Of a stretch of 64,000 nt of DNA, positions 17,019-34,585 are shown in pieces. This DNA is from Pseudooceanicola nanhaiensis DSM 18065 (lineage in GTDB: Bacteria; Pseudomonadota; Alphaproteobacteria; Rhodobacterales; Rhodobacteraceae): NCBI RefSeq assembly GCF_000688295.1, contig NZ_JHZF01000014.1, positions 62,001-126,000 on the forward strand, given 5' to 3'. The position numbers and the translations under genes were made by a program. Below the pieces are notes generated by a model. It saw only the letters and a list, made by a program, of their open reading frames with translations, was not told the origin of the DNA and made no database searches. Within the stretch, counting starts at the first letter, position 1. Each line of letters begins with the position of its first letter.

Positions 17019-17651
17019 ATGGACAGCCACCCCGCATCCGGGTCGGAAGACACCTCGGACCTCATCGCATGCCCGAAATGCGACGCGCTCTACCGCGTGG
17101 TCGAGCCCGACCCGCGTGAGCGGGCGGTCTGCGCGCGCTGTCACACGGTGCTGATCGCGCCGCGGGCCCGGGCCGGCATGCAGCTGATCGCGATCTCGCT
17201 CACGGTGGTGATCCTCGTGGTCGCGGCAACGATCTTTCCGTTCCTGACGATCCACATCGGGGGCGCATGGCATTCCAGCTCGATCCTCGACGCGGCGCTC
17301 AGTTTCCGCGGCGGCACCTTCTACGCGCTGGCCCTGACCGTGGCGGCGCTCATCGTCTTCTTTCCGGTCCTGCGGGCGCTGCTCACGCTCTACGTGCTGG
17401 TGCCCGTGGTCTTCGACCGCCCGCCCGCCCGTGGCGCCAGGGCCGCCTTCAACCTGTCCGAGAGCCTGCGCCCCTGGTCCATGGCCGAGGTCTTCGCCAT
17501 CGGCTGCGCGGTCGCGCTGGTGAAGGTCGTCGACCTGGCCGACGTCGAATTCGGGCCGGCCTTCTACATGTTCTCGTCCCTCGTGATCCTGGTCGTCGTG
17601 CAGGACACCTTCTTGTGCAGGTACTCGGTATGGAAAGCCCTGGAAGAATGA
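17019..17651 (+). CDS. pqiA: Paraquat-inducible protein A family, first subunit
   Basis: A 210-residue membrane protein of the PqiA family. A zinc-ribbon-like motif CPKCDALYRV...CARCHTVL lies in the first 45 residues, followed by four predicted membrane segments. PqiA sits in the inner membrane and works with PqiB and PqiC to move lipids between membranes. E. coli PqiA is one protein with two such halves; here the halves are two separate genes. The stop overlaps the next start (ATGA). Confidence 0.88.
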   Translation: MDSHPASGSEDTSDLIACPKCDALYRVVEPDPRERAVCARCHTVLIAPRARAGMQLIAISLTVVILVVAATIFPFLTIHIGGAWHSSSILDAALSFRGGTFYALALTVAALIVFFPVLRALLTLYVLVPVVFDRPPARGARAAFNLSESLRPWSMAEVFAIGCAVALVKVVDLADVEFGPAFYMFSSLVILVVVQDTFLCRYSVWKALEE

Positions 17652-18292
17652 TCACGGCGCGGGACGCCGGGCTCGTCGCCTGCCGCCGCTGCACGCGGGT
17701 CTGGCCGATGGGCACCGAATATTGCGGCCGCTGCGGGCACGAGATCACCTCGCGCCACACAAAGTCGCTGCAGCGGGTGTGGGCGTGGTGGATGGTGGGG
17801 CTGGCCTGCTACGTGCCCGCCAACGTGCTGCCGATGCTGCACACGAGAACGCTGGTGATGGTCGACGAGAGCACCATCATCGGGGGCGCGGCCGAGCTTG
17901 CCCAGCACGGCAACTGGGGTGTCGCCATCGTCATCCTCGTCGCCTCGGTGCTGATTCCGATGGGCAAGTTCGCCGTGATCGCCGCGCTCGCGCTCGGCGT
18001 GCGCCACGGCAGCCAGCTGAGCGAGCTGCGGCGGCAGCAGCTGTTCGAAATCGTGGAATACATCGGCCGCTGGTCGATGATCGACGTCTTCGTCGTGGCC
18101 CTCCTGTCCTCTCTGGTGCAGCTCGGGGCGCTCGCCGCGGTGGCTCCGGGACCGGCAAGCCTTTACTTTGCCTTGTCGGTCATCTTTACCATGCTCTCGG
18201 CACAGGCCTTCGACAGCCGCCTCATATGGGACCCCGACACCACAGTGACGCATGACGAATACCAGGGCGCGCCGGAGCGACGCGCCGAATGA
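17648..18292 (+). CDS. pqiA: Paraquat-inducible protein A family, second subunit
   Basis: A 214-residue PqiA-family protein starting MITARDAGLVACRRCTRVWP, with the CxxC pairs CRRC and CGRC near residues 11-33 and four membrane segments after them. It is the second half of what is a single tandem protein in E. coli. It overlaps the first pqiA by 4 bases and the pqiB gene by 4 bases, so all are translated together. The pair probably forms the inner-membrane part of a lipid-transport complex. Confidence 0.88.
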   Translation: MITARDAGLVACRRCTRVWPMGTEYCGRCGHEITSRHTKSLQRVWAWWMVGLACYVPANVLPMLHTRTLVMVDESTIIGGAAELAQHGNWGVAIVILVASVLIPMGKFAVIAALALGVRHGSQLSELRRQQLFEIVEYIGRWSMIDVFVVALLSSLVQLGALAAVAPGPASLYFALSVIFTMLSAQAFDSRLIWDPDTTVTHDEYQGAPERRAE

Positions 18293-20931
18293 CCGAAACG
18301 CCTCCCAACGTCCCGGTGCGTCCGCGGCGCCGGTCCTTCCTGGAACGTGTCTCCATCGTGTGGATCATTCCGTTGGTGGCGCTCGTCATCGCCCTTGGCG
18401 TGGCGTGGCAGACCTACACCAGCCGGGGCCCGGTGATCGACATCACCTTCGAGAACGCCAGCGGCGTCACCGCGAACGAGACCGAGCTGCGGTATCGTGA
18501 CGTGGCCGTCGGCGTCGTGGAGCGCGTGACCTTCACCAATTCGCTCGACCGGGTGCTGGTTCGGGTGCGCCTGGACAAGGACGTGGCGCCCTATGTCGAC
18601 GACGAGGCGCAGTTCTGGGTGGTGCAGCCGCGGATCTCGACCGAGGGGATCGAGGGGCTCGACACCGTCCTGACCGGGGTTTTCATCGAGGGCCTGTGGG
18701 ACAACGTCCCCGGCGTGCCCGCGGATCAGTTCGAGGGTCTGGCCGAGGCGCCCCTCTCGCGCGACGGGCGCGGCGGCCTGGCGATCAAGCTGCGCGCCAC
18801 GGGCGAGGCGGGGATCACCGAGAACGCGCCGCTGGTCTATCGCGGGATCGAGGTGGGCCGGGTCGGCCGGGCCGAGATCTCGGATGACGGCAGCACCGTC
18901 GAGGCCGAGGCGATGATCTTCGAGCCGCACGACCGGCTGGTCTCGGACGCGACCCGCTTCTGGGACACCTCGGGCTTCACCTTCAAGCTGGGCCCCGCGG
19001 GGGCCGAGATCGACTTCTCCTCCGTCGCGACGCTGATTTCCGGCGGGATCACCTTCTCGACCGCGGTCTCGGGCGGTCTGCCCGCGCGGGACGGCGCCGT
19101 GTTCTCGGTCTTCCCGGACGAAGAGACCGCGCAGGCCAGCGCGAATGCGACCGAAGGGGGCGAGCCCCTGTTCCTGACCGCGATCTTCGAAGAGAACGTC
19201 GCGGGCCTGTCGACCGGCAACCCGGTCGATCTGGGCGGCATCCGGGTGGGCCGGGTCACGGCCGTCAACGGCATGGTCGATCAGGAACGCTTCGGCGACC
19301 GCAATGTGCGGCTGGCGGCGACGCTGGCGATCCGGCCGGGCCGGCTGGGCCTGCCCGAGGGCGAGGCGACCCCGGGCGCGGCGCTGGCCTTCCTCGACGA
19401 ACTCGTCGAGGACGGGCTGCGCGCGCGGCTGGTGACGTCCTCGATCCTGACCGGCGGGCTGAAGGTCGACCTGACCAAGGTCGACGGGCTCGAAACCGCG
19501 CATATCGACACCGAGGCGCAGCCGAACCCCGAGATCCCGACGACCGAGGCGGACATCGCCGATGTCACCGCCACGGCGGAAGGGGTCTTCGAACGGATCA
19601 ACTCGCTGCCGATCGAGGAGCTGATGCAATCGGTGATCGGCGCGCTCGACAACGTCAGCAGCTTCATGGGCAACGACGATCTGCAGCAGCTGCCGGGCGA
19701 TGTACGGGGCCTCGTGGGCGACGCCCGCGGCGTCGTCGGCTCCGAGGCGGCGCAGCAGCTGCCGGTGGAGCTGACCGCGGCCGTGACCGAGGTCCGGACC
19801 CTGCTGGAAGAGCTGAACGAACAGCAGGCGGCGACCCGTCTTCTGAGCGCGATCGACGACGTTTCGGCGGCCGCGCAGGCGACGACCGCCGCCCTCGACG
19901 GGGCGCCCGAGCTGATCGCGGACATCGACGTGGTGGCCAAGCAGGCGGCCGAGCTGGGCCTCGACGAGATGGTGGCCGAGATCACCGCGCTTGCGGCGAG
20001 CGCCAATGCGCTCTTCGGCAGCGAGGCGGCGCAGGCGCTGCCCGCCTCGGCGGCGGCGAGCCTCGAGACGCTGAACACCTTCCTGTCGGACCTGCAGGAC
20101 CGCGACATCGCGGGCGCCGCGACCGAGGCGCTGAACGCGCTGCGCGACGCCGCGACCGAGGTCTCCTCGTCCGTGGAGGGCGTGCCGGCGCTGGTCGAGA
20201 AGATCGACGCGGTCGCGGCCAACGCGCAGAACCTGCCGCTGGAAGAGCTCGCCAACGAGCTTCAGGGCGTGCTGACCAACGTGAACGCGGTCATCGGCAC
20301 CGAGGCGGCGCGACAGCTTCCGGCCTCGGTCCGCGACGGGATCGCGGAACTGCAGGGGCTCATCGCCGAGCTGCGGGCGCAGGACATCGCGGGCAAGGCG
20401 GGCGAGGCGCTGGCCTCCGTCCGCTCCGCCGCGCAGGATGTCTCGACCTCGCTCGACGGGGTGCCGGCGCTGATCGAGAAGATCGACGCGGTCGCCGCCA
20501 AGGCCGAGACGCTGCCGCTGAACGAACTGGCCGACGACCTGTCGAGCCTGCTCGAAAGCGCCGACGCGCTGATCGGGACGGACGCGGCGCGGCAGCTGCC
20601 CGCGGACCTCTCGGCGGCGCTCGGTTCGCTCCGCCAGATCCTCGACGAGCTGCGCGAGGGCGGGGTGATCGAGAACGCCAACCAGACCTTCGCCTCGGCC
20701 CGCGCGGCGGCGGACAACATCTCGGCCGCGGCCTCGGACCTGCCGGCCCTGATCCAGCGCGCCGAAGCGGTGCTGGCGCAGGCCTCCGAGACGCTGCGTG
20801 GCTATGACGCCAACGGCATCGGCCGCGACGCCTCGCAGGCGCTGCGGGAGGTGGAGCGCGCGGCGGCGGCCGTCTCGGCCCTCGCCCGGGCGCTGGAACG
20901 CAAACCGAACTCGATACTCTTCGGAAGGTAG
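18289..20931 (+). CDS. pqiB: PqiB-like MCE protein with four 93-residue C-terminal repeats
   Basis: An 880-residue intermembrane transport protein. One membrane segment (about 23-45) is followed by three MCE domains (about 48-140, 165-265 and 285-400). MCE domains stack as hexameric rings forming a lipid tunnel through the periplasm. The C-terminal part, which forms a helical needle in E. coli PqiB (546 residues in total), is much longer here. It contains four repeats starting at residues 484, 577, 670 and 763, exactly 93 residues apart, each opening with G-S/T-E/D-AAxxLP. The repeats are Ala/Leu/Glu rich and helical. The gene overlaps the second pqiA by 4 bases. Confidence 0.88.
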   Translation: MTETPPNVPVRPRRRSFLERVSIVWIIPLVALVIALGVAWQTYTSRGPVIDITFENASGVTANETELRYRDVAVGVVERVTFTNSLDRVLVRVRLDKDVAPYVDDEAQFWVVQPRISTEGIEGLDTVLTGVFIEGLWDNVPGVPADQFEGLAEAPLSRDGRGGLAIKLRATGEAGITENAPLVYRGIEVGRVGRAEISDDGSTVEAEAMIFEPHDRLVSDATRFWDTSGFTFKLGPAGAEIDFSSVATLISGGITFSTAVSGGLPARDGAVFSVFPDEETAQASANATEGGEPLFLTAIFEENVAGLSTGNPVDLGGIRVGRVTAVNGMVDQERFGDRNVRLAATLAIRPGRLGLPEGEATPGAALAFLDELVEDGLRARLVTSSILTGGLKVDLTKVDGLETAHIDTEAQPNPEIPTTEADIADVTATAEGVFERINSLPIEELMQSVIGALDNVSSFMGNDDLQQLPGDVRGLVGDARGVVGSEAAQQLPVELTAAVTEVRTLLEELNEQQAATRLLSAIDDVSAAAQATTAALDGAPELIADIDVVAKQAAELGLDEMVAEITALAASANALFGSEAAQALPASAAASLETLNTFLSDLQDRDIAGAATEALNALRDAATEVSSSVEGVPALVEKIDAVAANAQNLPLEELANELQGVLTNVNAVIGTEAARQLPASVRDGIAELQGLIAELRAQDIAGKAGEALASVRSAAQDVSTSLDGVPALIEKIDAVAAKAETLPLNELADDLSSLLESADALIGTDAARQLPADLSAALGSLRQILDELREGGVIENANQTFASARAAADNISAAASDLPALIQRAEAVLAQASETLRGYDANGIGRDASQALREVERAAAAVSALARALERKPNSILFGR
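19738..20853 (+). repeat. Four in-frame 279-bp repeats in pqiB
   Basis: Repeat starts are at 19738, 20017, 20296 and 20575. The spacing is exactly 279 bases each time, encoding 93 residues. Shared landmarks are AAxxLP at the start, EL near residue 25, an AxxAL(R)xAA stretch, and IDAVAAxAxxLPLxEL near the end. The DNA has diverged, but the length is kept without any indel. Confidence 0.9.
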
Positions 20932-20935
20932 GACG

Positions 20936-21499
20936 ATGCGAACGAACCTGATCGGTGCCACCGCGGCCCTCGCCCTTCTCGCCGGATGTGGCGACAACGC
21001 GCTGCGCTACTCGGTGCCCGCGGTGCCGGTGACGCAGGAGCGCGTCGGGATCGCCTACAACAGCGTCGAGGTGCTGGCGGTCTCGCTGCCCAGCTACGCC
21101 GCGGCCGAGGAGATCTACATCCGCGGGGCGGACGGGGCGCTGACCTCGTCCACCGACCTGCTCTGGTCCGACGACCCCTCTCGGGCGGTGACGCTCGAGC
21201 TGACGCGCTACCTGGGCCAGATCACCGGCGCGCGGGTCGCGCCCGAGCCCTGGCCTTTCGCCGAGCGGGCCGCGGCCCGGCTCGATGTCCGGGTCGAGGA
21301 GATGTACGCCGAGCCCGGCCGCTTCGTGATGACCGGCCAGTTCTTCGGCGCGCCCGAGGACGGCGGCCGCGACCGCGCGGGCCTCTTCAGCCTCGCGGCC
21401 CCCATCCCCGAGGGCGGCGGCGCGGCCGCGATCGCCGCGGCACGGGCGCAGGTGATGCGCGATCTCGCGGCGGATATCGCCCGCCGGGCGCTGCGCTGA
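20936..21499 (+). CDS. pqiC: PqiC-like outer-membrane lipoprotein (ABC-type transport auxiliary family)
   Basis: A 187-residue protein with a lipoprotein signal: MRTNLIGATAALALLAGCGD, with the lipobox Cys at residue 18. The mature part fits the PqiC/DUF330 family, which anchors the PqiB tunnel at the outer membrane. It starts 4 bases after pqiB and closes the operon; a hairpin follows. Together the operon encodes a complete PqiABC-type system. Confidence 0.86.
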   Translation: MRTNLIGATAALALLAGCGDNALRYSVPAVPVTQERVGIAYNSVEVLAVSLPSYAAAEEIYIRGADGALTSSTDLLWSDDPSRAVTLELTRYLGQITGARVAPEPWPFAERAAARLDVRVEEMYAEPGRFVMTGQFFGAPEDGGRDRAGLFSLAAPIPEGGGAAAIAAARAQVMRDLAADIARRALR

Positions 21500-21746: not shown

Positions 21747-22982
21747 GTGGACAAGCCGAACCCCAAGAGTTCGAGTTTCGAGGCCTATGCGCGCCGCCGT
21801 TTCAGAATGGCCGGTTCCGCGCTGCTTGAAGGTGGGCACCCCTGGTTTGCCGCCACCGACAAGGTCGCCGAGGAAGCTGCCAAGAAGCCCGGCGGATACG
21901 TCAGCTTTGCACATTACGATTATCTCGGCCTGCTGAAGGACCCCCGCGTCACCGACGCGGCCAAGCAGTCGATCGACGATTTCGGCAGCGGGGCCGGTGC
22001 CTCGCGCCTCGTCGGCGGGGAGCGCTCGGCGCACCGCAAGTTCGAAGAGGACATGGCGGAGTTCCTCGGGGTCGGCGGCGTGCTCGCCATGATCTCGGGC
22101 TACCTGACCAACATGTCCATCATCTCCCATATCCTGGGGCCGCGCGACCTGGTCATCACCGATGACCTCGCGCACAACTCCATCGTCATGGGGGCGAAGG
22201 CGGGCAAATTCGCTTACAAGAAATTCCGCCACAACGACCTCGACCATCTCGAGCACCTGCTCGAGACGGAGCGGTCGAACTACGCCCGCGTCCTGATCGC
22301 GGTCGAGGGACTCTACTCGATGGATGGCGATCTCGCCGACCTGCCCCGGCTGGTCGACATCAAGGATCGCCACGACGCCTGGCTGCTCCTCGACGAGGCG
22401 CATTCCTACGGCGTTCTGGGTGAAACGGGCGCAGGCCTGTGCGAACGCTGCGGGGTCGATCCGGAACGGGTCGAGCTGCAGATCGGCACACTGTCGAAAA
22501 GCTTCGTCTCCTCCGGCGGCTTCATCGCCGCCTCGCGCGAGGTGATCGAATGGCTGCGCTTCACGCTGCCCTGCTTCGTCTACTCGGTGGGCCTCTCGCC
22601 CGCCACGCTGGCGACGGCGCAGACCGCGCTGGACATCCTGAGGGCCGAGCCCGAGCGTGTCCGGCAGCTGCGCCACAACTCCCAGTATTTCCTGAGCAAG
22701 GCCCGCGCGGCCGGGCTGAACACGCATACCGCGCTCGGCGAGGCGGTGATCCCCGTGCTGTTCCAGACGCAGGCGCAGACGCTCGCCGTCTCGCACATCC
22801 TGCTGGAGCAGGGGATCTTCGCGCCGCCGATCATCCACGTCGGCGTACCGAAGGACCTGCCGCGCATCCGGTTCTTCATCTCCGCCGGCCATCAGGAGGC
22901 CGACATCGACCGCGTGGTCGCGGCTCTGGCCGAAGCGGCCGAGATGACGGCCGACCTCGCGGGCAAAGCTGTCGGAACATAA
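21747..22982 (+). CDS. Serine palmitoyltransferase-like alpha-oxoamine synthase
   Basis: A 411-residue PLP enzyme of the alpha-oxoamine synthase family, which condenses an amino acid with an acyl thioester. Motifs are SFAHYDYLGL, DDLAHNSIVMGAK, LLLDEAHSYGVLG and the PLP lysine K251 in TLSKSFVSSGGF. The same fold includes 8-amino-7-oxononanoate synthase, KBL and ALA synthase. I favour serine palmitoyltransferase, the first step of sphingoid-base synthesis, because a 3-ketodihydrosphingosine reductase-like gene lies in the same operon. The start is GTG with GGAGGGA about 6 bases upstream. The next gene starts 4 bases after its stop. Confidence 0.82.
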   Translation: MDKPNPKSSSFEAYARRRFRMAGSALLEGGHPWFAATDKVAEEAAKKPGGYVSFAHYDYLGLLKDPRVTDAAKQSIDDFGSGAGASRLVGGERSAHRKFEEDMAEFLGVGGVLAMISGYLTNMSIISHILGPRDLVITDDLAHNSIVMGAKAGKFAYKKFRHNDLDHLEHLLETERSNYARVLIAVEGLYSMDGDLADLPRLVDIKDRHDAWLLLDEAHSYGVLGETGAGLCERCGVDPERVELQIGTLSKSFVSSGGFIAASREVIEWLRFTLPCFVYSVGLSPATLATAQTALDILRAEPERVRQLRHNSQYFLSKARAAGLNTHTALGEAVIPVLFQTQAQTLAVSHILLEQGIFAPPIIHVGVPKDLPRIRFFISAGHQEADIDRVVAALAEAAEMTADLAGKAVGT

Positions 22983-22986
22983 CCGC

Positions 22987-23607
22987 ATGGCACAGACCCG
23001 AACCGCGACCCCGGCCCCGGTCAGGGGGCTGGTGGCGCTTCTTTTCGCGTTTCTCACCGCCCTGATCCTCGCCGCCCCCGCTTGGGCGGCGCCCCAGCTC
23101 GACCTCGTGTCGCGCGACACCACGGCCGCCCTGCCGGTGATCCGAAAGGACTACCCGGTCCCGAACGACGGCGGGCAGGTCTTCTATATCCAGCGCTCGC
23201 CGAACGCCAACACGGTGGTCTACGGCACCCGCGTCGCAGGTGGCCAGATCGACCCGAAGGCCCCGGTCTCGGCCTATTGGCGGCGGTTCAACACCGGCGG
23301 CGAGGCCAAGGCGCTTGGCGGGCTGGAACGGCGCATGGCCTACGGGGTCAACGCGCAGCCCAATGGCGATGGCACCTACCGGGTGACCTTCAGGGCGCTG
23401 CCCGCGAAATCCATGACCCTGCGGATGGAGGGTGGCCGTCCGGCGCTTTTCATGCCAATGGGCAACGCGGAAGCGCGTTTGATCTATGCCTACCTCGATG
23501 TTGAGGACGGGCTGATCCCGAGCGTGACAGGCCTCAAGATAGTCGGGCGCCTGCCTTCGGGACAATACGTAACTGAAACATATCGAGTGAAGGGCGGAGA
23601 GCTCTAG
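22987..23607 (+). CDS. DUF4833-like secreted protein
   Basis: A 206-residue protein with an N-terminal signal peptide (hydrophobic stretch to about residue 34, cleavage after AWA). The rest resembles DUF4833 proteins: FYIQRSPNANTVVYGTR, SAYWRRFNTGG and a conserved mixed-strand body. Function is unknown. It is embedded between the serine palmitoyltransferase-like and inositol-phosphate synthase genes with gaps of 4 and 2 bases, so a periplasmic role in making, modifying or handling the lipid product is likely. The domain name is from memory of the family and was not checked. Confidence 0.7.
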   Translation: MAQTRTATPAPVRGLVALLFAFLTALILAAPAWAAPQLDLVSRDTTAALPVIRKDYPVPNDGGQVFYIQRSPNANTVVYGTRVAGGQIDPKAPVSAYWRRFNTGGEAKALGGLERRMAYGVNAQPNGDGTYRVTFRALPAKSMTLRMEGGRPALFMPMGNAEARLIYAYLDVEDGLIPSVTGLKIVGRLPSGQYVTETYRVKGGEL

Positions 23608-23609
23608 GA

Positions 23610-24722
23610 ATGACAACAGACAAGAAGGCCCCGATCCGGGTGGCCATCGCCGGGGTCGGGAACTGTGCAAGTTCGCTCGTGCAGGGCGTCAGCTACTGCA
23701 AGCGCATGGGCGACAAGGCCATCGGGGTCAGCTTCCCCGAACTGGGCGGCTACGCCCCGACCGACATCGAATTCGTCGCAGGCTTCGACGTCGATGCCCG
23801 CAAGGTGAACAAGTCGCTGGGCGAGGCCATCATGGCCGAGCCCAACTGCACCGCGATCTTCGAGACCGAGGTGTCCGAGCACACCGCCGTGGTCCGCCGC
23901 GGTCCGGACCTCGACGGCGTGTCGAACTTCATGCGCAACCAGGACCCGCGCCGCGCCTTCCAGGTGTCGCCGGAACCCGCGCTGTCGAAGGACGATGTCG
24001 TCTCGGTCCTGAAGGAGAGCGGCGCCGAGGTGCTGATCATCTTCCTGCCCGTCGGCTCCATCGAGGCCGTCGAGTTCTACGCCCAGTGCGCGCTCGAGGC
24101 GGGTGTCTCGATCGTCAACGGCATCCCGGTCTTCATCGTCTCCAACCCGACCTGGGCCAAGAAGTTCGAGGATGCGGGCATCCCGGTGCTCGGCGACGAC
24201 TTCAAGGCCCAGTTCGGCGCGACGATCATGCACCGCGCGATCACCCAGCTCGCCGACATGCGCGGCGTGCAGATCGACCGGACCTACCAGCTGAACGTCG
24301 GCGGCAACACCGACTTCCTGAACATGATGGACGGCGACCGGCTGGCGATGAAGCGCGAGTCGAAGACCGAAGCCGTTCAGGAAAGCATGAAGGCCCGGCT
24401 CCAGAACAACGACATCCGCGTCGGACCCTCGGATTACGTGCCGTGGCTGAACGACCGCAAGGTGGCCTACATCCGTCTCGAAGGCCGTCTCTTCGGCGGC
24501 GTGCCGACGAGCGTGGAGATGCGCCTGGAAGTCGAGGACAGCCCGAACGCCGCCGCCGAGGCGCTGGCGGCGATCCGCTGCGCCCGCATCGCGCGCGACC
24601 GCGGTCTTGCCGGTCCGGTCAAGGCGGCCTCGGCCTTCATCTTCAAGCACCCGCCCGAGCAGATGGGTGACGAAGAGGCCTATCGCAAGATGATCGAGTT
24701 CGCCGAGAAGGCGGACGGCTGA
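23610..24722 (+). CDS. Inositol-3-phosphate synthase
   Basis: A 370-residue myo-inositol-phosphate synthase, which converts glucose 6-phosphate to inositol 3-phosphate using NAD. The Rossmann motif AGVGNCASSLVQG is near residue 14, and the family stretch RTYQLNVGGNTDFLNMMDGD is near residue 230. It is closest in style to the short actinobacterial/bacterial form rather than the 500-residue eukaryotic enzyme. De novo inositol synthesis is uncommon in Proteobacteria and points to inositol lipids or inositol solutes. It shares one base with the reductase gene that follows. Confidence 0.92.
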   Translation: MTTDKKAPIRVAIAGVGNCASSLVQGVSYCKRMGDKAIGVSFPELGGYAPTDIEFVAGFDVDARKVNKSLGEAIMAEPNCTAIFETEVSEHTAVVRRGPDLDGVSNFMRNQDPRRAFQVSPEPALSKDDVVSVLKESGAEVLIIFLPVGSIEAVEFYAQCALEAGVSIVNGIPVFIVSNPTWAKKFEDAGIPVLGDDFKAQFGATIMHRAITQLADMRGVQIDRTYQLNVGGNTDFLNMMDGDRLAMKRESKTEAVQESMKARLQNNDIRVGPSDYVPWLNDRKVAYIRLEGRLFGGVPTSVEMRLEVEDSPNAAAEALAAIRCARIARDRGLAGPVKAASAFIFKHPPEQMGDEEAYRKMIEFAEKADG

Positions 24723-25534
24723 TGCCAGCGCCCGGTCAGCGCGCCCCGGCCTGGGTATCGGGCGGGTCGAGCGGGATCGGGCTCGAAATCGGGCGGCTTC
24801 TGGCTGCCCAGGGGCGCCCCGTCGTGCTGATGGCACGGAACGGGGCGCGCCTCGAGGCCGCCGCCGCCGACATCCGGTCGGGCGTGAGCGGGGCCGAGGT
24901 GCTCTGCATTCCCGTCGATGTCAGCGACCGTGACGCGGTGGCCGCCGCCGCGGCGCAGGCCGTGGCGGCCCATGGCGCCCCCGGCTGCGTCGTGGCAAGC
25001 GCGGGGATCGTCGAGCCCGGGCTCTTCCTCGAGCAGCCGCTCGAAAGCTTCGAGCGCCAGATGGCGGTCAATTACCACGGCAGCCTCTACCTGCTGCACG
25101 CCGCCGCGCCCTTGATGCGGGACGCGGGCGGCGGCCAGATCGGGCTGATCGCCTCGGCCGCGGCCTTCTTCGGGATCTACGGCTACGCGGCCTATGCGCC
25201 GACGAAATACGCCGTCCGCGCCCTGGCCGAGGTGCTGCGCGTCGAACTGGCGCCCGACAACATCACCGTCACCCTCTGCTATCCGCCGGACACCGACACG
25301 CCGCAGCTGGCCGCCGAAAGGCTGACGAAGCCCGAGGCGACCTCGGTCATCACCGGGGGCGGCGGGCTCTGGCAGCCCGGGGCGGTCGCCGCGCGGCTCG
25401 TCCGGGGGATGGAGAAGGGCCACTTCGCCGTCACGCCGGGCTGGCAGGTGAGCCTGCTGAACCTCATCGCGCCGCTGATCGCCCCGATCCTGCGCTGGCA
25501 CCAGGGCCGCGTGATCCGGACGTTCGCAAAATGA
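24722..25534 (+). CDS. SDR oxidoreductase, 3-ketodihydrosphingosine reductase-like
   Basis: A 270-residue short-chain dehydrogenase. The cofactor loop is GGSSGIG at 14-20, and the catalytic triad residues are S145, Y158 and K162. The segment YPPDTDTP at 187-194 followed by TKPE is characteristic of eukaryotic 3-ketodihydrosphingosine reductases (KDSR/FVT1). The C-terminal 40 residues (VSLLNLIAPLIAPILRW) are hydrophobic, as in KDSR. It would reduce the ketone made by the upstream PLP enzyme to a sphingoid base. It differs from the extended-SDR ceramide reductase CerR described in Caulobacter. It is coupled to both neighbours by overlaps. Confidence 0.82.
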   Translation: MPAPGQRAPAWVSGGSSGIGLEIGRLLAAQGRPVVLMARNGARLEAAAADIRSGVSGAEVLCIPVDVSDRDAVAAAAAQAVAAHGAPGCVVASAGIVEPGLFLEQPLESFERQMAVNYHGSLYLLHAAAPLMRDAGGGQIGLIASAAAFFGIYGYAAYAPTKYAVRALAEVLRVELAPDNITVTLCYPPDTDTPQLAAERLTKPEATSVITGGGGLWQPGAVAARLVRGMEKGHFAVTPGWQVSLLNLIAPLIAPILRWHQGRVIRTFAK

Positions 25535-26412
25535 TCGCCCCGCCGCCGACCCTGGGCGTCGTCGCGGCCGCGCTGGTCGTGCTGGCGCTCGGCTATGCCA
25601 TCGTGGGCGCGATGATGTGGATCCCCGCCACCTCGGCCAGTGCGCGGAAGATCTGGCCGATCCTGAACATCGAGGCGCTGACCGTCGGCGCGGTGCTGGT
25701 GATCTTCGCCTTCGCGCCGGTGCTCATGGTCCCCGCCATGCTCGCCTTCACCCTGCGCGTGGTCTGGGAGGCCGCCTCGGTCCGCCACCGCCCCTCGGGC
25801 GGCGGCCACGCGGTGTTCTGGGCGGGGGCCGCGGGCGCGGTGCTGATCCTCTGCTTCCTGCTGCCCTGGACCGTCGCGGTCGCGGCGCTCGGCCTGTCGT
25901 GGCTGGCCGCCGCCGCCTGGCGCCTGGCCCGGCCCGGGGAACCGGCTGCCGACCTGCTGGTCTTCCCGGTCCTGCCGCTGCTGGCCTTCGCCACCGCCTG
26001 CGCCGGCACCAACCCGGCGATCTTCCTCGCCGCCTGGATCGGGATCGAGACCTTCGACAGCTACGCGCTGCTCGCCGGCAAGGTCTTCGGCAGGCGCAAG
26101 GCCTTCCCCGTCCTCAGCCCCAACAAGACCATCGAGGGCCTCGCGGGCGGCGTCGCCATGCTGGTCCTCACGGTCCTCGTGGCCGCGGCCTTCCTCGACA
26201 ACCTGAGCTACGGCCGGGCGCTGGCCTTCGCGCTGCTGATCGGGGTCTTCACCGTGACCGGCGACCTTGCCGCCTCGCTGATGAAGCGCCGCGCCGGGGT
26301 GAAGGACTTCCCGCCGCTGGTGCCGCACCAGGGCGGCCTTTTCGACATCTTCGACAGCTGGATCGCGACCGGCGGCGCGCTCGCCGTTCTGCTGGCGGTC
26401 TGGGCAGGGTAG
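25531..26412 (+). CDS. CdsA-like phosphatidate cytidylyltransferase
   Basis: A 293-residue polytopic membrane protein with a C-terminal signature SLMKRRAGVKDFPPLVPHQG, close to the CDP-diglyceride synthetase pattern S-x-K-R-x4-KD-x3-P-x-H-GG. The usual D-R after the glycines reads DIFDS. CdsA makes CDP-diacylglycerol from phosphatidic acid and CTP. A second copy in a lipid operon suggests a dedicated supply of an activated lipid for the CDP-alcohol phosphotransferases nearby, or activation of a different lipid phosphate. It starts within the reductase gene's stop. Confidence 0.8.
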   Translation: MIAPPPTLGVVAAALVVLALGYAIVGAMMWIPATSASARKIWPILNIEALTVGAVLVIFAFAPVLMVPAMLAFTLRVVWEAASVRHRPSGGGHAVFWAGAAGAVLILCFLLPWTVAVAALGLSWLAAAAWRLARPGEPAADLLVFPVLPLLAFATACAGTNPAIFLAAWIGIETFDSYALLAGKVFGRRKAFPVLSPNKTIEGLAGGVAMLVLTVLVAAAFLDNLSYGRALAFALLIGVFTVTGDLAASLMKRRAGVKDFPPLVPHQGGLFDIFDSWIATGGALAVLLAVWAG

Positions 26413-26424
26413 GGTGTCCGGGCC

Positions 26425-27558
26425 ATGCGTCCCTATTTCCGCCTGACCCTCCGCCCGATCCTCGCGACCTCGCTCATCATCCTCGCGCTCGTCGAGATCG
26501 TCTTCCTCTCGGAACAGTTCACCGGGCTGATGGACCGCGTCCTCAAGACCGGGGGCACCGGCTGGGACCTCGTGCGGCTGCTGCTCTGGGAGGTGCCCGA
26601 GATCCTGGACCTCGCCCTGCCGGTCGCGCTGCTGGTCGGCGTGCAGAGCGCCGTCGGCCGCGCCCGCACGCAGGGCGAGCTGGTCGTGCTGACCGCCGCG
26701 GGCGCGCCGGTCGGGGGGCTGGTGCGGGGCGTGCTGCTGGTCGGACTGCTGGGCGGGCTGCTCAGCTTCGCCATCGCCGGGATCATCGCGCCCGCCGCGA
26801 GCTATGCCCAGAGGGTCGCGCTGCACGCGCTGACCGTGCAGCACATCCGCGCCCGCATATCGGAGCCGGGCGAGAGCGGGTCGACCTTCCGCGCGCAGGG
26901 CGTCGATTTCGTCGCCACCGGCGCGGATGATGCGAGCCCCTCGCTCATGGTGCGGCGCCCGGCCGACGCCCGGCCGTGGCGCTTCGCCTTCGCCGGGGAA
27001 TGGGAGGTGACGGGGCCCGACGAGGACGGTGAGCGCGGCAACTTCCGGCTGGGGCAGGTGACCGCCTTCGGCGATCTGCCGCGGCTCGACGGCGAGATGA
27101 CCGAGGCGCAGATGAACCGCATGGCCGCCGGTTCGGTCGACGTGGGCTTCGACATGGACGACATCCTGCCCGTGCTCGACCGCACCCCGCGCGAGAACGA
27201 GCGCCCGGTGGTGCCCGCGCTGCAGGCGCTGATGGCGGGCGAGGTGCTGGAAGAGGCGACGAACCCCGAACGCATCGCGCGCATCTGGGCCCGGGCCCTG
27301 CTGGTGCCGGCCGCCGCCCTGCTGGCGCTGATGGCCGTCTGGGGCGGCTCGGTGCGGGGGGTGCGCGCCGCCGCCCTGCCGCTGGCGCTTCTGGCGCTGG
27401 TGGCCTGCGACCTCGTGACGAGGGCATGGCTGGGCGGGATCGCCGCCGGGCCGTCGCTCTGGGCGGCCTCCGGGGTGGTGACGCTGGCGCTGCTCGGGCT
27501 GCCGCTGGCCGCGCTCTGGCGCGCCGGCGAGGCGCTCGTCCGGCCGGGGCGCGGCTGA
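26425..27558 (+). CDS. LptF/LptG-family permease, first subunit
   Basis: A 377-residue protein with three N-terminal membrane segments (about 10-125), a soluble periplasmic middle (about 130-280, jellyroll-like) and three C-terminal segments. This is the LptF/LptG architecture: these subunits extract lipopolysaccharide from the inner membrane with the LptB ATPase. It lies 12 bases after the CdsA-like gene and overlaps the second subunit by one base. No lptB, lptD, lptC or surA is nearby, so it is more likely a dedicated exporter for the lipid made by this operon than the housekeeping LPS pair. Confidence 0.82.
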   Translation: MRPYFRLTLRPILATSLIILALVEIVFLSEQFTGLMDRVLKTGGTGWDLVRLLLWEVPEILDLALPVALLVGVQSAVGRARTQGELVVLTAAGAPVGGLVRGVLLVGLLGGLLSFAIAGIIAPAASYAQRVALHALTVQHIRARISEPGESGSTFRAQGVDFVATGADDASPSLMVRRPADARPWRFAFAGEWEVTGPDEDGERGNFRLGQVTAFGDLPRLDGEMTEAQMNRMAAGSVDVGFDMDDILPVLDRTPRENERPVVPALQALMAGEVLEEATNPERIARIWARALLVPAAALLALMAVWGGSVRGVRAAALPLALLALVACDLVTRAWLGGIAAGPSLWAASGVVTLALLGLPLAALWRAGEALVRPGRG

Positions 27559-28685
27559 TGGCGATGCGGAGCCTCACCGGCCGGGCCATGCGGATGGCGC
27601 TGCGCGAGCATGTCGCGGCCTTCGTGATCGTGCAGATGGTGCTGATCTTCATCGCGCTGATGCTGGATTTCGCGGACAGCTTCGAGTCGATCCGCGCCGC
27701 CGCCGAGGGGCGCAACCTCGTGGCGGTCATCGGGCAGTATACGCTCTACCGCACCGCCGACATCGTCGCGCGGCTGATGCCGGTGGCCGCGCTCCTCGGT
27801 GCCTTCCTGGCCGAGATCCGGCGGCGGGCGCTGCTCGAGACGGTGATCCTTTCGGCCGCCGGGGTCTCGGCCCTGCCGACCATCGCCGCGCTCTGCTGGA
27901 TGGGCGCGGTGACCGGCTGGCTGCAATGGAAGCTGGAACGCGACTGGCGGCCCGCGGCGGTCTTCGCGCAGGTCGAGCTGGGCGCGGGCGATTACGCCGA
28001 ACGCTATGCCGAGGGTCTGACCGACGACCAGCACTGGTTCGTGCGCGAGGATTCCGCGCTGGCCGGACGTGTCCTTGTCGGGCCGCAGCCGGAACTGCGC
28101 GAGGTCAGCTATTTCATCGGCCTGAACGGGGCCGGGTTCGACCGGCTGATCCGGGCCGACACGGTGCGGCCCCTCGGCGGCGGGCAGTGGGAATTCGAGG
28201 ATGCCGAGATCTGGACCTCGACCCCCGACGGCCGCCTGATCGGCCTGCCGGCCCAGACCATGGAGCTGCCGCTCTGGTTCCAGACCAACCGGCTGCGCTA
28301 TCTCAACCCCTCGGCCTATTACCTGCCGCAGGAGGTGCTGCTGACCCGGGCCGAGGCCGATCCCGAGGATCCCTACATGCGCACCACGATCTGGCGGCGC
28401 GGGACGGCATGGCTGCTGCCGGGCCTGTTCTCGATCCTCGGGGCGACGCTGGCGATGACCGGCTTCCGGGGGCGGGTGACACGGGTGCCGATCCTCGTCG
28501 GGATGGCCTTCGGCGGCTACCTCGTGACCCTGTCGCTCAAGATCTTCTGGGCGCTCGGCGAACAGGGCGCGCTGTCGGTGCCGGTGGCGGTGCTGATCCC
28601 GCCGGCGCTGGCGCTGACGATTTCGGCCGTGCTGCAATGGCTGATGCACCGGGAATCCCGGGGACGCCGCCTGCCGCTCGGCTGA
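27558..28685 (+). CDS. LptF/LptG-family permease, second subunit
   Basis: A 375-residue partner of the upstream permease with the same plan: three membrane segments within about the first 120 residues, a periplasmic domain of some 160 residues, and three more segments after residue 285. The C-terminal membrane part (LLPGLFSILGATLAMTGF) resembles LptG. ATG is at 27558, overlapping the stop of the first subunit. Such heterodimers form the membrane core of an ABC-type lipid extractor; the ATPase must come from elsewhere, for example a shared LptB. Confidence 0.82.
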   Translation: MAMRSLTGRAMRMALREHVAAFVIVQMVLIFIALMLDFADSFESIRAAAEGRNLVAVIGQYTLYRTADIVARLMPVAALLGAFLAEIRRRALLETVILSAAGVSALPTIAALCWMGAVTGWLQWKLERDWRPAAVFAQVELGAGDYAERYAEGLTDDQHWFVREDSALAGRVLVGPQPELREVSYFIGLNGAGFDRLIRADTVRPLGGGQWEFEDAEIWTSTPDGRLIGLPAQTMELPLWFQTNRLRYLNPSAYYLPQEVLLTRAEADPEDPYMRTTIWRRGTAWLLPGLFSILGATLAMTGFRGRVTRVPILVGMAFGGYLVTLSLKIFWALGEQGALSVPVAVLIPPALALTISAVLQWLMHRESRGRRLPLG

Positions 28686-28692
28686 GGGCGGA

Positions 28693-29448
28693 TCAGATCG
28701 CCTTGCGCCGCGCCGCCTCCACCAGCCCGGCGCTGGCGCGCGGCCAGACATGCTCGCGGGCATGGGCGAGCATCTGTTCGTCGTCCACCTCGGCCCAGGC
28801 GAGATCCGGGATCAGCGGGCAGTGGAAGTCCGTGTCCTGCGCGAAGGCCACGACGCCCGCCTCGTAATCGAGCTTGGGCCGGTCGGCCAGCAGCGCCTCG
28901 GCCGTGCCGCGGAAGGCCGCGACATGCGCCGCGGTGAAGGCGGTGATGCCGACAAGCTCGCCGCGCGGCGCGTCGCTGCGGTGATCCGCCTGTTTCGACA
29001 TGTCCACGAGGTTGCCCGCGGCGTCGGTCCAGACATAGACCTCGTCCCCCGCGCCGGTCGGGCCCGACAGCACCATGCCGGAGCCCGCCGCGATCAGCGG
29101 ATCGAGCGCGCGCGGCTCGTACATGATGTCGGATTCGAGCACCAGCAGCGGCCCGTCGAGCCCCGCGAGCCCGGTCATCATCGACCTGAGGCTGCCCGTC
29201 GTCGCATAATCGGGGTTGTGGATCAGCTCCACGCCCGGCGTGGCCGAGAATTCCTGCTGGTAGAGTTCCGACAGGTGGCCCGTCACGATCCGCACCCGCT
29301 CGACCCCGCGCGCGGCGAGATGCATGACCGAGGCGCGCACCAGCGGCAGCCCGTCGAGGGCGATCAGACCCTTGGGCGTCAGCCGTCCCCGCGCGCCCAT
29401 GCGCACACCAAGACCCGCCGCGACGATCAGCGCCGTAAACTCACCCAT
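28693..29448 (-). CDS. NTP-transferase family nucleotidyltransferase (choline/inositol-phosphate cytidylyltransferase type)
   Basis: A 251-residue nucleotidyltransferase. The N-terminal motif ALIVAAGLGVRMGARG with LTPKGL (residues about 5-28) binds NTP and the phosphate acceptor. Size and the motif LVLESDIMYE resemble LicC-type phosphocholine cytidylyltransferases and the cytidylyltransferase half of inositol-1-phosphate cytidylyltransferases. In this setting it could make CDP-inositol or another CDP-alcohol for the adjacent CDP-alcohol phosphotransferase. It is convergent with the permease operon (7 bases apart) and divergent from the phosphotransferase. Substrate is inferred only. Confidence 0.75.
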   Translation of the reverse strand: MGEFTALIVAAGLGVRMGARGRLTPKGLIALDGLPLVRASVMHLAARGVERVRIVTGHLSELYQQEFSATPGVELIHNPDYATTGSLRSMMTGLAGLDGPLLVLESDIMYEPRALDPLIAAGSGMVLSGPTGAGDEVYVWTDAAGNLVDMSKQADHRSDAPRGELVGITAFTAAHVAAFRGTAEALLADRPKLDYEAGVVAFAQDTDFHCPLIPDLAWAEVDDEQMLAHAREHVWPRASAGLVEAARRKAI

Positions 29449-29559
29449 TCGCTCTTTCTCCCGGAGTGGCCCCGTGTCATGGAACCCTTACCCAATTGTC
29501 ATTCGTCTGATACATGAGGCGCCACCCTGCGCCAAGACACGAACCGAGAAGACCCCCGC

Positions 29560-30255
29560 GTGACTTCCCCCGACCATCCCGGCCCGCGGACCCTGGCCCG
29601 CGCCTATTTCGCAAGCTCCAAGTCGGGCGAGGAACTGCGCGGCAACTGGGTGATGTGGGTGCTGCACCGCTGGCCGAGCTTCGTGCTGACGTCCCTGTGC
29701 CTGCGGGCGGGGATCCGGCCCGACCGGGTGACATTGCTGGGCGGGGCGCTGGTCTGGCTGCTGCCGCTGATGGCCTGGCTGCTGCCGCCCGCAGGGGCGG
29801 CCTGGGCGGTCTGCGTGACCGGGTTCGTGGTGATCGTCCTGGATTGCGTCGATGGCGACGTGGCCCGCTGGACGGGCATGACGAGCGCACGGGGCGCGCG
29901 GCTCGACTTCATCGTCGACATGACCTTCTGGGGGCTGCTCTACCTGTCGATCGGGATCATCGCGGCGGGCGGCACCTTCGGCGGCTGGGCCGTGCTGGGC
30001 ATGGCGGCGGGCTGGGCGCGGCTGCTGGCGCGCGTGGTCAACGACAGCATGGGCGGCCATTCGACCGAGGCGGCGCCGGCCCGCTGGACCCCGCTCGCCG
30101 TGGGTGAGGCCGCGGTGGTCGGCCTGTCCGGCGCGATCCCCTTCCTCGCGCTGGCCGCGCCTTCGGCGCCCTGGGTCGTCTGGCTGCTGCTCGGCTACAG
30201 CGCGCTCGATCTGGGCGACGCGCTGCTGCGCCTTCTGAGGTCCGACGCCGCATGA
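29560..30255 (+). CDS. CDP-alcohol phosphatidyltransferase family protein (first copy)
   Basis: A 231-residue integral membrane enzyme. The full family motif is present: D95-x2-D98-G99-x2-A102-R103-x8-G112-x3-D116-x3-D120. Such enzymes transfer a phospho-alcohol or phosphatidyl group between a CDP-activated donor and an alcohol acceptor, as in phosphatidylinositol-phosphate synthase. The start is GTG at 29560. It overlaps the PimA-like glycosyltransferase gene by 4 bases, linking lipid head-group attachment to glycosylation. Confidence 0.88.
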   Translation: MTSPDHPGPRTLARAYFASSKSGEELRGNWVMWVLHRWPSFVLTSLCLRAGIRPDRVTLLGGALVWLLPLMAWLLPPAGAAWAVCVTGFVVIVLDCVDGDVARWTGMTSARGARLDFIVDMTFWGLLYLSIGIIAAGGTFGGWAVLGMAAGWARLLARVVNDSMGGHSTEAAPARWTPLAVGEAAVVGLSGAIPFLALAAPSAPWVVWLLLGYSALDLGDALLRLLRSDAA

Positions 30256-31352
30256 AGATCGTCCACGTCAGCCCCTACCCGATGGCGCGCCCCGGCGGGG
30301 TCCAGAGCAACGTCCGCGACCTCTGCGCCTGGCTCGACCGCTCCGGGCACGAGACGCGCATCGTCTCGCCGGTGAGCCCCGGCGCGGATCTGGCGCCGGG
30401 CGAGATGGCGCTTGGCCGGGCGCGCGAGATGTCGCTGCACGGCACGGGGTTCGAATTTTCGCTCGCCGGGCCTGGCCGCCTGCGCGCCGCGGTGCGCGCG
30501 CTGCGGGACTGGGGGGCCGAGATCGTCCACCTGCACACGCCGTGGACGCCGATGATGCCGTGGCAGCTCTGGCGCCGGCTGGACCTGCCGAGCGTGGCCA
30601 CCTTCCATGCGACCCTGCCCGAGACCGACCGCCCGGGGATCGAGGACCGCTACATCGCGCGCGCCGCGCGGCATTTCCACGCCCGGCTGGACGCCCTCGT
30701 GGTGCCCTCCGTCGCGCCGCTGCGGCAATGGGACCGTCTGGGCGTCACGCCGCTGCCCGAGGTGCTGCCGCCGACCATCGACCTGGCCGACTGGCGGGCG
30801 GGCGACACCGGCGGCATCCGGCGGCCGGGGCCCTTCCGGGTCGCCTACCTGGGCCGGTTCGAGGCGCGCAAGGGCGTCGACGTCCTGCTGAAGGCCTGGG
30901 CGCAGCGCCCGCCCGCGCTGCGCGATGCCGAGCTGGTGCTGGCGGGGCGGGGCGACCTGCCCGGCCCGCTGCCCCAGGGCGCGCGGCTGGTGCAGAGCCC
31001 CGGCCGGTCCGAGGCGATCCGCCTGATCGCCGATGCCGACGTCTCGGTCGCGCCGGCGGGCTACGGCGAGAGCTTCGGCCTTGTCCTGATCGAGGCGATG
31101 GCGGCGGGCACCGTGCCGGTGGCGGCGGCGAATGTCGGCTATTCCACCGTGATGACGGGCGCGGGCAGCGCGCTGCTCTTCCCGCCGGGCGATGCCGCGG
31201 CACTGGCTGCACGGCTGGCCGAACTGGCGACCGATCCCGCGCGGCTGGCCCGGCTGACCGACTGGGCGCGCGGGCATGCCATGGCCTATGACGTGAGCCG
31301 GGTCGGGCCCGAATACGTCGCGCTCTACGAGCGCGTGCTCGGCCGTTCGTAG
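30252..31352 (+). CDS. Glycosyltransferase family 4, PimA-like
   Basis: A 366-residue GT-B glycosyltransferase. The N-terminus MKIVHVSPYPMARPGGVQSN closely matches the PGGVQ start of PimA-type phosphatidylinositol mannosyltransferases, and the donor-binding E-x7-E motif is ESFGLVLIE near residue 272. It would transfer a hexose from a nucleotide sugar to a lipid acceptor on the cytoplasmic face. Coupling to a CDP-alcohol phosphotransferase and proximity to inositol-phosphate synthase suggest a glycosyl-inositol lipid. The last 28 bases overlap the convergent Stealth gene. Confidence 0.85.
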   Translation: MKIVHVSPYPMARPGGVQSNVRDLCAWLDRSGHETRIVSPVSPGADLAPGEMALGRAREMSLHGTGFEFSLAGPGRLRAAVRALRDWGAEIVHLHTPWTPMMPWQLWRRLDLPSVATFHATLPETDRPGIEDRYIARAARHFHARLDALVVPSVAPLRQWDRLGVTPLPEVLPPTIDLADWRAGDTGGIRRPGPFRVAYLGRFEARKGVDVLLKAWAQRPPALRDAELVLAGRGDLPGPLPQGARLVQSPGRSEAIRLIADADVSVAPAGYGESFGLVLIEAMAAGTVPVAAANVGYSTVMTGAGSALLFPPGDAAALAARLAELATDPARLARLTDWARGHAMAYDVSRVGPEYVALYERVLGRS

Positions 31353-32293
31353 GGGGAGGGCTCGGGGAACCGCGCCTCGAGCCAGCGGCGCATCCACGCC
31401 ACCATGCGCGGGTTGGGCCGGTCCCCGAAACTGTCGTTGAAGGTGGCGGTCAGGGGGGCACGGCGCTCCATCCGGCGCATCGTCCAGAGCGTCCACGGCA
31501 TGAAGTTCTCGATCGAGACATAGCCCTCGACTGCCCGGGTCTCTGCCGTGCTGGCGGCCCGCGCCGTCCCCTCTGCCACCGCGTAATGCGGATAGAGCAC
31601 CTCGGGCGGGATGTTGTCGGTGCCCCGGAAGCGGCTGGCGCGGGTGGCGGCGGTCTCTTCCGGGAAGGCGGCGAGCATCGCGGCATATTCCGCCCGGTCG
31701 ATCAGCCGCGGCCCGTGGATCACGTGCCTGCGGGGGGCGGGGCCATAGCTCCGGTCGAGCAGGTCGGCCGTGTTGGCCAGCGCGTGGTTCCAGGGGCTGG
31801 CCTTCGGGCCGAGCCTGCGCGCCACGGGCAGCTTCGCCTGGGTGAAATGCGAGACGCGCCGCCCGTCCCGGTCCTCGAGCGCCTGCATCAGCCCGGGGCG
31901 GAGCAGCACCATGTCGTCCTCGAGGTAGAGGAACCGCGCCCCGAGCCCGGGCAGCAGGTGCAGATGGCTGACGATGGCGAAGGAGTTGAAGGTCGGCAGG
32001 ATCTCCGGCGCCATCACCGCATCGTGGTGGTGCACGGTGATGCCCTCGGCGTCCGGGTCCAGCCACCGGGGGATCTGCGGGCGGCAGGTCAGCAGGTGGA
32101 CATGCCCCAGCTCGGGCAGGTGCCTGAGCGAACGCAGCGAATAGCGCAGCAGGTCGAGGTTGTCCCGCGTGCGGTTCGGGTTGGTGTCGGCGGGCACGTC
32201 CGCGTAGCGCGACAATTGCTCGGCATAGCCGGGAAAGGTGTCGTCCACCCAGGTGTAGACCACGTCGATCTTGCTGGTGTTCTGAGCCGTCAT
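31325..32293 (-). CDS. Stealth family protein (capsular polysaccharide phosphotransferase type)
   Basis: A 322-residue protein with Stealth conserved regions: IDVVYTWVDD near residue 9 (CR1), a segment NRTRDNLDLLRYSLRSL near residue 39 (CR2), FLYLEDDMVLLRPGL near residue 116 (CR3) and a C-terminal CR4-like end. Stealth proteins transfer hexose-1-phosphate onto sugar chains, making phosphodiester-linked polysaccharides. The start was set at ATG 32293. It is divergent from the kinase gene and overlaps the glycosyltransferase gene tail to tail. Confidence 0.85.
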   Translation of the reverse strand: MTAQNTSKIDVVYTWVDDTFPGYAEQLSRYADVPADTNPNRTRDNLDLLRYSLRSLRHLPELGHVHLLTCRPQIPRWLDPDAEGITVHHHDAVMAPEILPTFNSFAIVSHLHLLPGLGARFLYLEDDMVLLRPGLMQALEDRDGRRVSHFTQAKLPVARRLGPKASPWNHALANTADLLDRSYGPAPRRHVIHGPRLIDRAEYAAMLAAFPEETAATRASRFRGTDNIPPEVLYPHYAVAEGTARAASTAETRAVEGYVSIENFMPWTLWTMRRMERRAPLTATFNDSFGDRPNPRMVAWMRRWLEARFPEPSPYERPSTRS

Positions 32294-32420
32294 GGCCAAC
32301 TCGCATAGCCGTCCCGGCGGCGCTTGGCGAGAGGGGAATGCCGGGTTGCCGCGCCCGGAACCCCATGCCACAAGAACCGCGCCCGGCGCAGACCGGGCGC
32401 GGGACGGGACAGATGCACAG

Positions 32421-33965: not shown

Positions 33966-34585
33966 TCGACGGTCTCATAAAGCATGTGCTGGACCCGCTT
34001 TGGGAAAAGGCCTCGACCCCGCTGGTCAAGGCACGGATGACGCCGAACCAGGTGACGCTGGCCGGGCTGGGGCTGATCTGCCTCGGCGCGGGGCTCTATC
34101 TCTGGCACCGCAGCGACCTGGTCTTCGGGCTGTGGCTGGCGGTCTCCTTCGCCTTCGACGCGCTCGACGGGGCGGTGGCGCGGCGGCGCGACATGCGCTC
34201 GAAGGCGGGCGGCTACCTCGATGCCATGGTGGATCGCTATCAGGAGCTGGTCGTGCTGGCCGCCATCGCCCATGTCCACGACCTCTGGGCGCTTGCCCTG
34301 CTGAGCTTCGCGGGCAGCGTCATCACCTCCTACGCCAAGGCCCGCACCGCGCTCGAGGCCGAGATCTCGAACGACGGCTGGCCCGAGCTCTTCGAGCGGC
34401 TCGAGCGGATCATTTACACCTGCGTGCTGCTCGTGGTCGCGGGGCTGGTGCCGCAGGCGTGGGTGCCGAACGTGATGGCGGCGGGGCTGCTGATCTTCGC
34501 GGGGCTGACGAACCTCACCGCCCTTCAGCGGGGCTGGCGGGCTTTCTCGATGCTGCGCCGGATCGACCGTGGGCCCGGAGGATGA
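33962..34585 (+). CDS. CDP-alcohol phosphatidyltransferase family protein (second copy)
   Basis: A 207-residue membrane enzyme with the complete motif D66-x2-D69-G70-x2-A73-R74-x8-G83-x3-D87-x3-D91. About six membrane segments follow the usual pattern. It is translationally coupled to the FGGY kinase (ATGA overlap), which suggests that the kinase product or a derivative is its substrate. Its last 71 bases overlap the 3' end of the convergent membrane-protein gene. A second such enzyme within 4 kb points to a multi-step head-group pathway. Confidence 0.88.
   Translation: MIDGLIKHVLDPLWEKASTPLVKARMTPNQVTLAGLGLICLGAGLYLWHRSDLVFGLWLAVSFAFDALDGAVARRRDMRSKAGGYLDAMVDRYQELVVLAAIAHVHDLWALALLSFAGSVITSYAKARTALEAEISNDGWPELFERLERIIYTCVLLVVAGLVPQAWVPNVMAAGLLIFAGLTNLTALQRGWRAFSMLRRIDRGPGG

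Follow-up and report, generated by a model that had tools for sequence, protein, structure and literature searches.

The needle region of an 880-residue PqiB homologue from Pseudooceanicola nanhaiensis DSM 18065 contains four tandem units of exactly 93 residues, and among relatives in the Rhodobacteraceae this region changes in length by whole modules or by heptads, as expected of coiled coils. We give even chances to the explanation that this PqiB is a lipid tunnel whose needle has grown as one helical module was duplicated in tandem. The gene lies in a 64,000-nucleotide stretch of the genome (hereafter the window), and the coordinates of the locus are collected in Table 1.

The protein has one N-terminal transmembrane helix followed by three MCE domains (three PF02470 matches; AlphaFold2), and its best match in a Foldseek search was E. 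coli PqiB (PDB 5uvn, E 4.7e-29 over 409 columns). The NCBIfam PqiB equivalog model NF008070 scored 375 bits over residues 18–521, under its cut-off of 525 bits; since fold and operon agree while this score is too low, we name the protein a PqiB homologue rather than a curated equivalog. LetB (type IV MCE, seven MCE domains) was rejected as an identity, because the protein has three MCE domains and its repeats are helical, without an MCE match. The sequence-only reading had called the protein PqiB and had set its length against about 546 residues in E. coli; the three MCE domains, the operon, the NCBIfam match and the likeness to 5uvn in sequence and fold confirm the name, and E. coli PqiB indeed has 546 residues. 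The region after the third MCE domain holds a needle module, as an HMM built from the repeat unit matches E. coli PqiB needle residues 448–508 (i-E 1e-9). The repeat unit and the E. coli needle module are thus homologous, and the part that was multiplied is the needle-forming region.

Table 1. Features of the pqi locus (positions in the window)
Feature	Position	Strand	Basis
pqiA first half, 210 aa	17019..17651	+	Pfam PqiA 2.4e-34; PqiA domain and zinc-ribbon-like N-terminus
pqiA second half (separate gene)	17648..18292	+	Pfam PqiA 1.3e-45; DNA read
pqiB, 880 aa, ATG start	18289..20931	+	ORF; NCBIfam PqiB NF008070; PDB 5uvn by sequence and fold
N-terminal transmembrane helix, residues 23–44	18355..18420	+	AlphaFold2 helix 23–44; hydrophobic sequence
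MCE domain 1	18427..18687	+	PF02470 match
MCE domain 2	18781..18978	+	PF02470 match
MCE domain 3	19192..19476	+	PF02470 match
Needle entry part with extra 23-residue sub-repeat, residues 440–462 (LPIEEL...)	19606..19674	+	self-diagonals 23, 116, 209, 302
Repeat unit 1, residues 463–555	19675..19953	+	
Repeat unit 2, residues 556–648	19954..20232	+	
Repeat unit 3, residues 649–741	20233..20511	+	
Repeat unit 4, residues 742–834, runs into C-terminal cap	20512..20790	+	
Conserved C-terminal cap ending ERKPNSxxxGR	20791..20928	+	
pqiC, outer-membrane lipoprotein	20936..21499	+	PF03886 3.4e-19

The operon order in the window, by Pfam, is pqiA-pqiA'-pqiB-pqiC, with pqiA upstream and pqiC downstream of pqiB. 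Unlike in E. coli, where PqiA is encoded by a single 417-aa gene, there are two half genes, whose junctions overlap at ATGA such that the start of the second gene lies over the preceding stop in the DNA as read. The split into two half genes was also seen at two other loci, that of Oceanicola granulosus (L158 3704-5004) and that of Defluviimonas denitrificans (L119 3735-4987), whose PqiB has 603 aa. Among 174 related loci, PqiA2 neighbours pqiB at all 174 and PqiC at 161, the identity of these neighbours having been confirmed with Pfam in the 1-unit form and in the longest form. Directly 3' of pqiABC (window 21747–34585) lies an apparent inositol/sphingolipid-type synthesis and export cluster, comprising an alpha-oxoamine (serine palmitoyltransferase-like) synthase, DUF4833, myo-inositol-1-phosphate synthase, an SDR, a CdsA-like cytidylyltransferase, two LptF/LptG-type permeases, an NTP transferase, two CDP-alcohol phosphatidyltransferases, a glycosyltransferase, a Stealth protein and an FGGY kinase. 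The combination of synthase, DUF4833 and inositol-phosphate synthase was found next to pqiB again only in the closest relative, L113, among the 174 loci, many of which are short. Lying next to pqiABC, this cluster may give a clue to the lipid transported.

An ungapped self-comparison of the protein scores 531 at an offset of 93 (residues 448–739), 316 at 186 and 133 at 279, whereas the best scores from 100 shuffles of the tail lie at 44 ± 6 (maximum 71); we therefore rejected an artefact or chance origin of the repeat. At the DNA level, one repeat family (D2) occurs at 19726, 20005, 20284 and 20563, that is, three spacings of 279 bases, and another (D1) consists of two 236-nt copies, 279 apart, with 72% identity. 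The copies share 25–54% protein identity, and Tandem Repeats Finder reported no array on the window DNA, since they are too diverged. The claim made from the letters alone, of four diverged repeats of exact length spaced three times by 279 bases, is thus upheld. The landmarks within a unit are fixed (QALP -48- GLP -17- LP -28- next QALP), and in copy 4 the homology ends after roughly the first half, from where the copy runs on into the conserved C-terminal cap. The 23-residue sub-repeat in the tail shows at offsets of 23, 116, 209 and 302, and the resulting spacing of 51 (28+23) at the needle entry is kept in relatives.

A PqiB homologue was found in 102 of 295 sampled Rhodobacteraceae genomes; PqiB is thus carried by only about one third of them, and the sole further genome from the genus of the window gave no match. 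Among 174 complete or near-complete PqiBs from the family, the unit HMM gave 628–630 matches, from 1 to about 9 per protein with partial ones counted, and by tail length 8 proteins have one unit, 101 have two, 32 have three and 33 have at least four. The tail lengths are stepped, and inside a step they lie sevens apart (288, 295, 302, 309; 388, 395, 402); the units themselves measure 93, 100, 107, 116 or 123 residues. On a tree of the 174 proteins, unit number changed at least 46 times, and PqiB length varies even inside Sulfitobacter (694, 815 and 824 aa). In the Sulfitobacter-type proteins L161, L171, L183 and L185 (815 aa) and L176 (824 aa), an odd unit of 121 residues (93+28) replaces one of 93. 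Counting repeats in related species, for comparison with periplasm width, had been proposed as a check; the count was made, and with such a range in one family and so many changes on the tree the number is not fixed and the ruler is not supported.

Elsewhere in the class, PqiB open frames have 545–594 aa, as in E. coli, with one exception of 981 aa. This exception (L201, G424:C1:1257163-1258377) lies outside the family, and its own family mate has 571 aa. As PqiB is otherwise E. coli-sized in the class, and as the unit HMM also matches the E. coli protein, the needle with several modules is an expansion, at the level of the family, of a module present approximately once in E. coli. The distance from the last LP to the C-terminus is about 64 residues in most relatives, and a C-terminal block of 48–64 residues is invariant. 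The nearest relative, L113, a Pseudooceanicola MAG, has a PqiB of 790 aa; its first unit pairs with the first unit of the window protein (51%) and its last with the last (63%), and units 2 and 3 of the window protein both match unit 2 of L113 best (58 and 67%). Compared with L113, the array grows in the middle by duplication, and its two ends, the needle entry and the C-terminal cap, do not change.

The length variation inside units follows the heptad. In relatives, the QALP–GLP spacing is 41, 48, 55 or 62 and the GLP–QALP spacing 38, 45 or 52, and indels inside units are multiples of seven in 119 of 129 cases, whereas the 304 indels in the MCE part of these proteins include no such case; as the proteins are related, the events counted are not independent, yet the difference remains large. 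The hydrophobicity period inside segments is 3.46, the heptad value, and the heptad phase is unbroken across GLP, with large shifts at QALP, GG and LP. Couplings in 425 aligned units (Neff 327) mostly join residues 5–11 apart, with no hairpin antidiagonal and no long-range signal. Over two consecutive units the coupling analysis was noisy (Neff 179), and the MCE domains are a weak positive control for it, since long-range pairs make up the majority of their column pairs in any case. Seven-residue insertions number 84 in the QALP–GLP arm, of which about 10 are mirrored in the other arm. Judged from these sequence patterns, the unbroken phase at GLP, the couplings and the unmirrored insertions favour extended helices.

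Extended helices, if straight, meet a problem of length. The tail of the window protein comprises about 490 residues from the third MCE domain, of which about 440 lie from the first LP on, and at 1.5 Å per residue the latter would reach about 66 nm; the 1295-aa form of Oceanicola granulosus would exceed 120 nm. By comparison, E. coli PqiB is about 230 Å long, with a single C-terminal helix per protomer in a flexible needle (PMC10897342), and two further papers give a periplasm of 24 nm in Veillonella, with about 150 helical residues in a 23.5-nm tunnel (PMC10665443), and of about 30 nm in Brucella (PMC12436622). For the species studied here, the literature search yielded no measurement of periplasm width. 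Against 24–30 nm, a straight perpendicular tube of about 66 nm is implausible, and the needle would therefore bend or tilt at joints, or its units would fold back. The proposal that the repeats lengthen a helical barrel thus survives in part: the coiled-coil region is extended, as the homologous unit and the heptad steps indicate, but lengthening as a straight tube is doubtful. The full-length AlphaFold2 model of the window protein, built with an alignment of 40 relatives, is good in the MCE part, with tail pLDDT of about 40–85, and a model of its tail alone was built with 69 relatives (pLDDT 78.5, pTM 0.50). The helices break at LP, GVP and QALP; both are models of a monomer, a poor test for a hexameric tube. 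In fold searches, the tail model resembles 4-helix bundles weakly, with no match below E 0.1.

TamB, which is unrelated to PqiB, spans the gap between inner and outer membrane with a beta fold (beta-taco), and YhdP is another envelope-spanning lipid transporter. TamB ranges from 1139 to 2093 aa in a first set of 57 genomes and from about 1085 to 2093 aa across all 93 Rhodobacteraceae genomes compared; in the window genome, its C-terminal domain is at G000:C13:1310826-1311890. In the first set, TamB length correlates with PqiB tail length (Spearman 0.56, p 5e-6; 0.49 as a partial correlation on GC), and so it does in phylogenetic contrasts (r 0.45, p 5e-4) on a midpoint-rooted tree that was itself inferred from portions of PqiB and TamB. 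Contrasts gave r 0.48 (p 0.003) in a second set, 36 genomes picked solely for absence from the first, and r 0.50 (p 4e-7) in all 93, or 0.35 (p 0.001) without the longest needles. The slope of TamB on PqiB tail is about one residue per residue. Long and short TamBs agree in the composition and alternation of their middle part, which in the long ones is therefore not disordered filler. RNase E length, taken as a control, is flat against the PqiB tail (rho 0.02; contrasts r 0.006). YhdP length, measured on stop-to-stop frames rather than from curated starts, shows no correlation (about 1130 aa, CV 3%), and the 1-unit group lies off the TamB trend, with a mean of 1448 aa vs 1300 in the 2-unit group. 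An independent sister-pairs test for TamB points in the same direction (2.9 vs 0.6) and is not significant, the pairs being too few. Taken together, the co-variation of PqiB and TamB lengths looks real, and it gives partial and indirect support to a link with envelope size. Of the earlier suggestion of a wider periplasm, the part that stands is that the tail tracks TamB length; YhdP does not follow, and its constancy, along with the geometry, disfavours a plain widening of the periplasm.

In the explanation to which we give even chances, the needle would be a tube of parallel helices from six protomers, like that of E. coli, with LP, QALP and GG acting as joints that shift the heptad phase. 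Given such joints, a long needle would be a chain of stiff segments able to bend or tilt into the periplasm, and the constant C-terminal cap may dock to PqiC. Because longer needles go with longer TamBs, needle length may also be adjusted, if only loosely, to the gap that such lipid bridges span; YhdP length, however, does not follow, and the 1-unit group lies off the TamB trend. Against a jointed tube stand its contour length, the large phase shifts, needless in a continuous straight helix, and the predicted breaks of the monomer at the joints, with their weak bundle likeness and moderate pLDDT. In a rival arrangement, each unit would fold back on itself into antiparallel helices or stacked helical layers and add thickness or a small rise, so that the needle stays near periplasm length. 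Straight tubes would be 3–5 times too long, and the monomer models break at the motifs and recall 4-helix bundles; further, because a beta-taco would rise far less per residue than a helix, the TamB slope would mean, if the two proteins share a gap, that each unit adds little net length. However, antidiagonal and long-range couplings are absent from the 425 units, heptad insertions go unmirrored in the partner arm, and E. coli PqiB, with a homologous module, has one needle helix per protomer (PMC10897342). Such coiled coils can, moreover, fold over themselves in AlphaFold predictions, as the MpcD authors report (PMC12436622). We consider folding back possible, if somewhat unlikely.

Unit number might instead change by unequal recombination and be functionally loose, long needles being slack or tilted and the TamB correlation reflecting some other shared trend. 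The many changes on the tree, the differences inside genera such as Sulfitobacter, the constancy of YhdP, which also bridges the envelope, and the non-significant sister-pair test would fit such drift, but the TamB correlation survives contrasts, a second set, removal of the longest needles and correction for GC, with a flat RNase E control, and we think drift rather unlikely. About equally doubtful is that PqiB and TamB lengths co-vary because the gap differs among species, which would make them a gauge of the envelope. A straight ruler of fixed length across a wide periplasm has the exact 93-residue spacing inside the window protein in its favour, but it is highly improbable in view of the variable unit number and unit length in relatives and the implausible straight length.

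The window protein resembles E. coli PqiB (PDB 5uvn; pqiABC) in its N-terminal transmembrane helix, three MCE domains, LP/QLP needle module and operon partners, but has four modules and an extra 23-residue element in place of about one module. Like E. coli LetB/YebT, a hexameric envelope-crossing MCE tunnel, it is lengthened by repetition of a domain, although in LetB these are seven MCE rings rather than coiled-coil modules, and a hexamer is expected here by analogy. Other comparable systems are the long MlaD of Veillonella parvula and MpcD of Brucella, MCE proteins whose extended helical needles were proposed to bridge the periplasm, MpcD having a PqiC-like partner, as in the window operon (PMC10665443, PMC12436622). 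They differ in having one MCE domain, an ABC transporter and a needle that matches the 24–30 nm periplasm, and the available text of the two papers describes no register-exact duplicated modules (PMC10665443, PMC12436622). In the coiled-coil linkers of phytochrome-diguanylate cyclases, natural length variants are likewise mostly multiples of seven residues, but these are signalling linkers without large module duplication (PMC9587094). In the literature searched, we found no report of modular growth or heptad quantisation of PqiB, or of its co-variation with TamB.

The family thus provides naturally occurring trans-envelope lipid tunnels of graded length, with fixed ends and 1 to about 9 modules in between, which makes testable the match of tunnel length to membrane spacing, the flexibility of the tunnel and the joint tuning of independent lipid bridges. 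If the link to the envelope is true, PqiB module number and TamB length would together be a gauge of envelope architecture that can be read from sequence.
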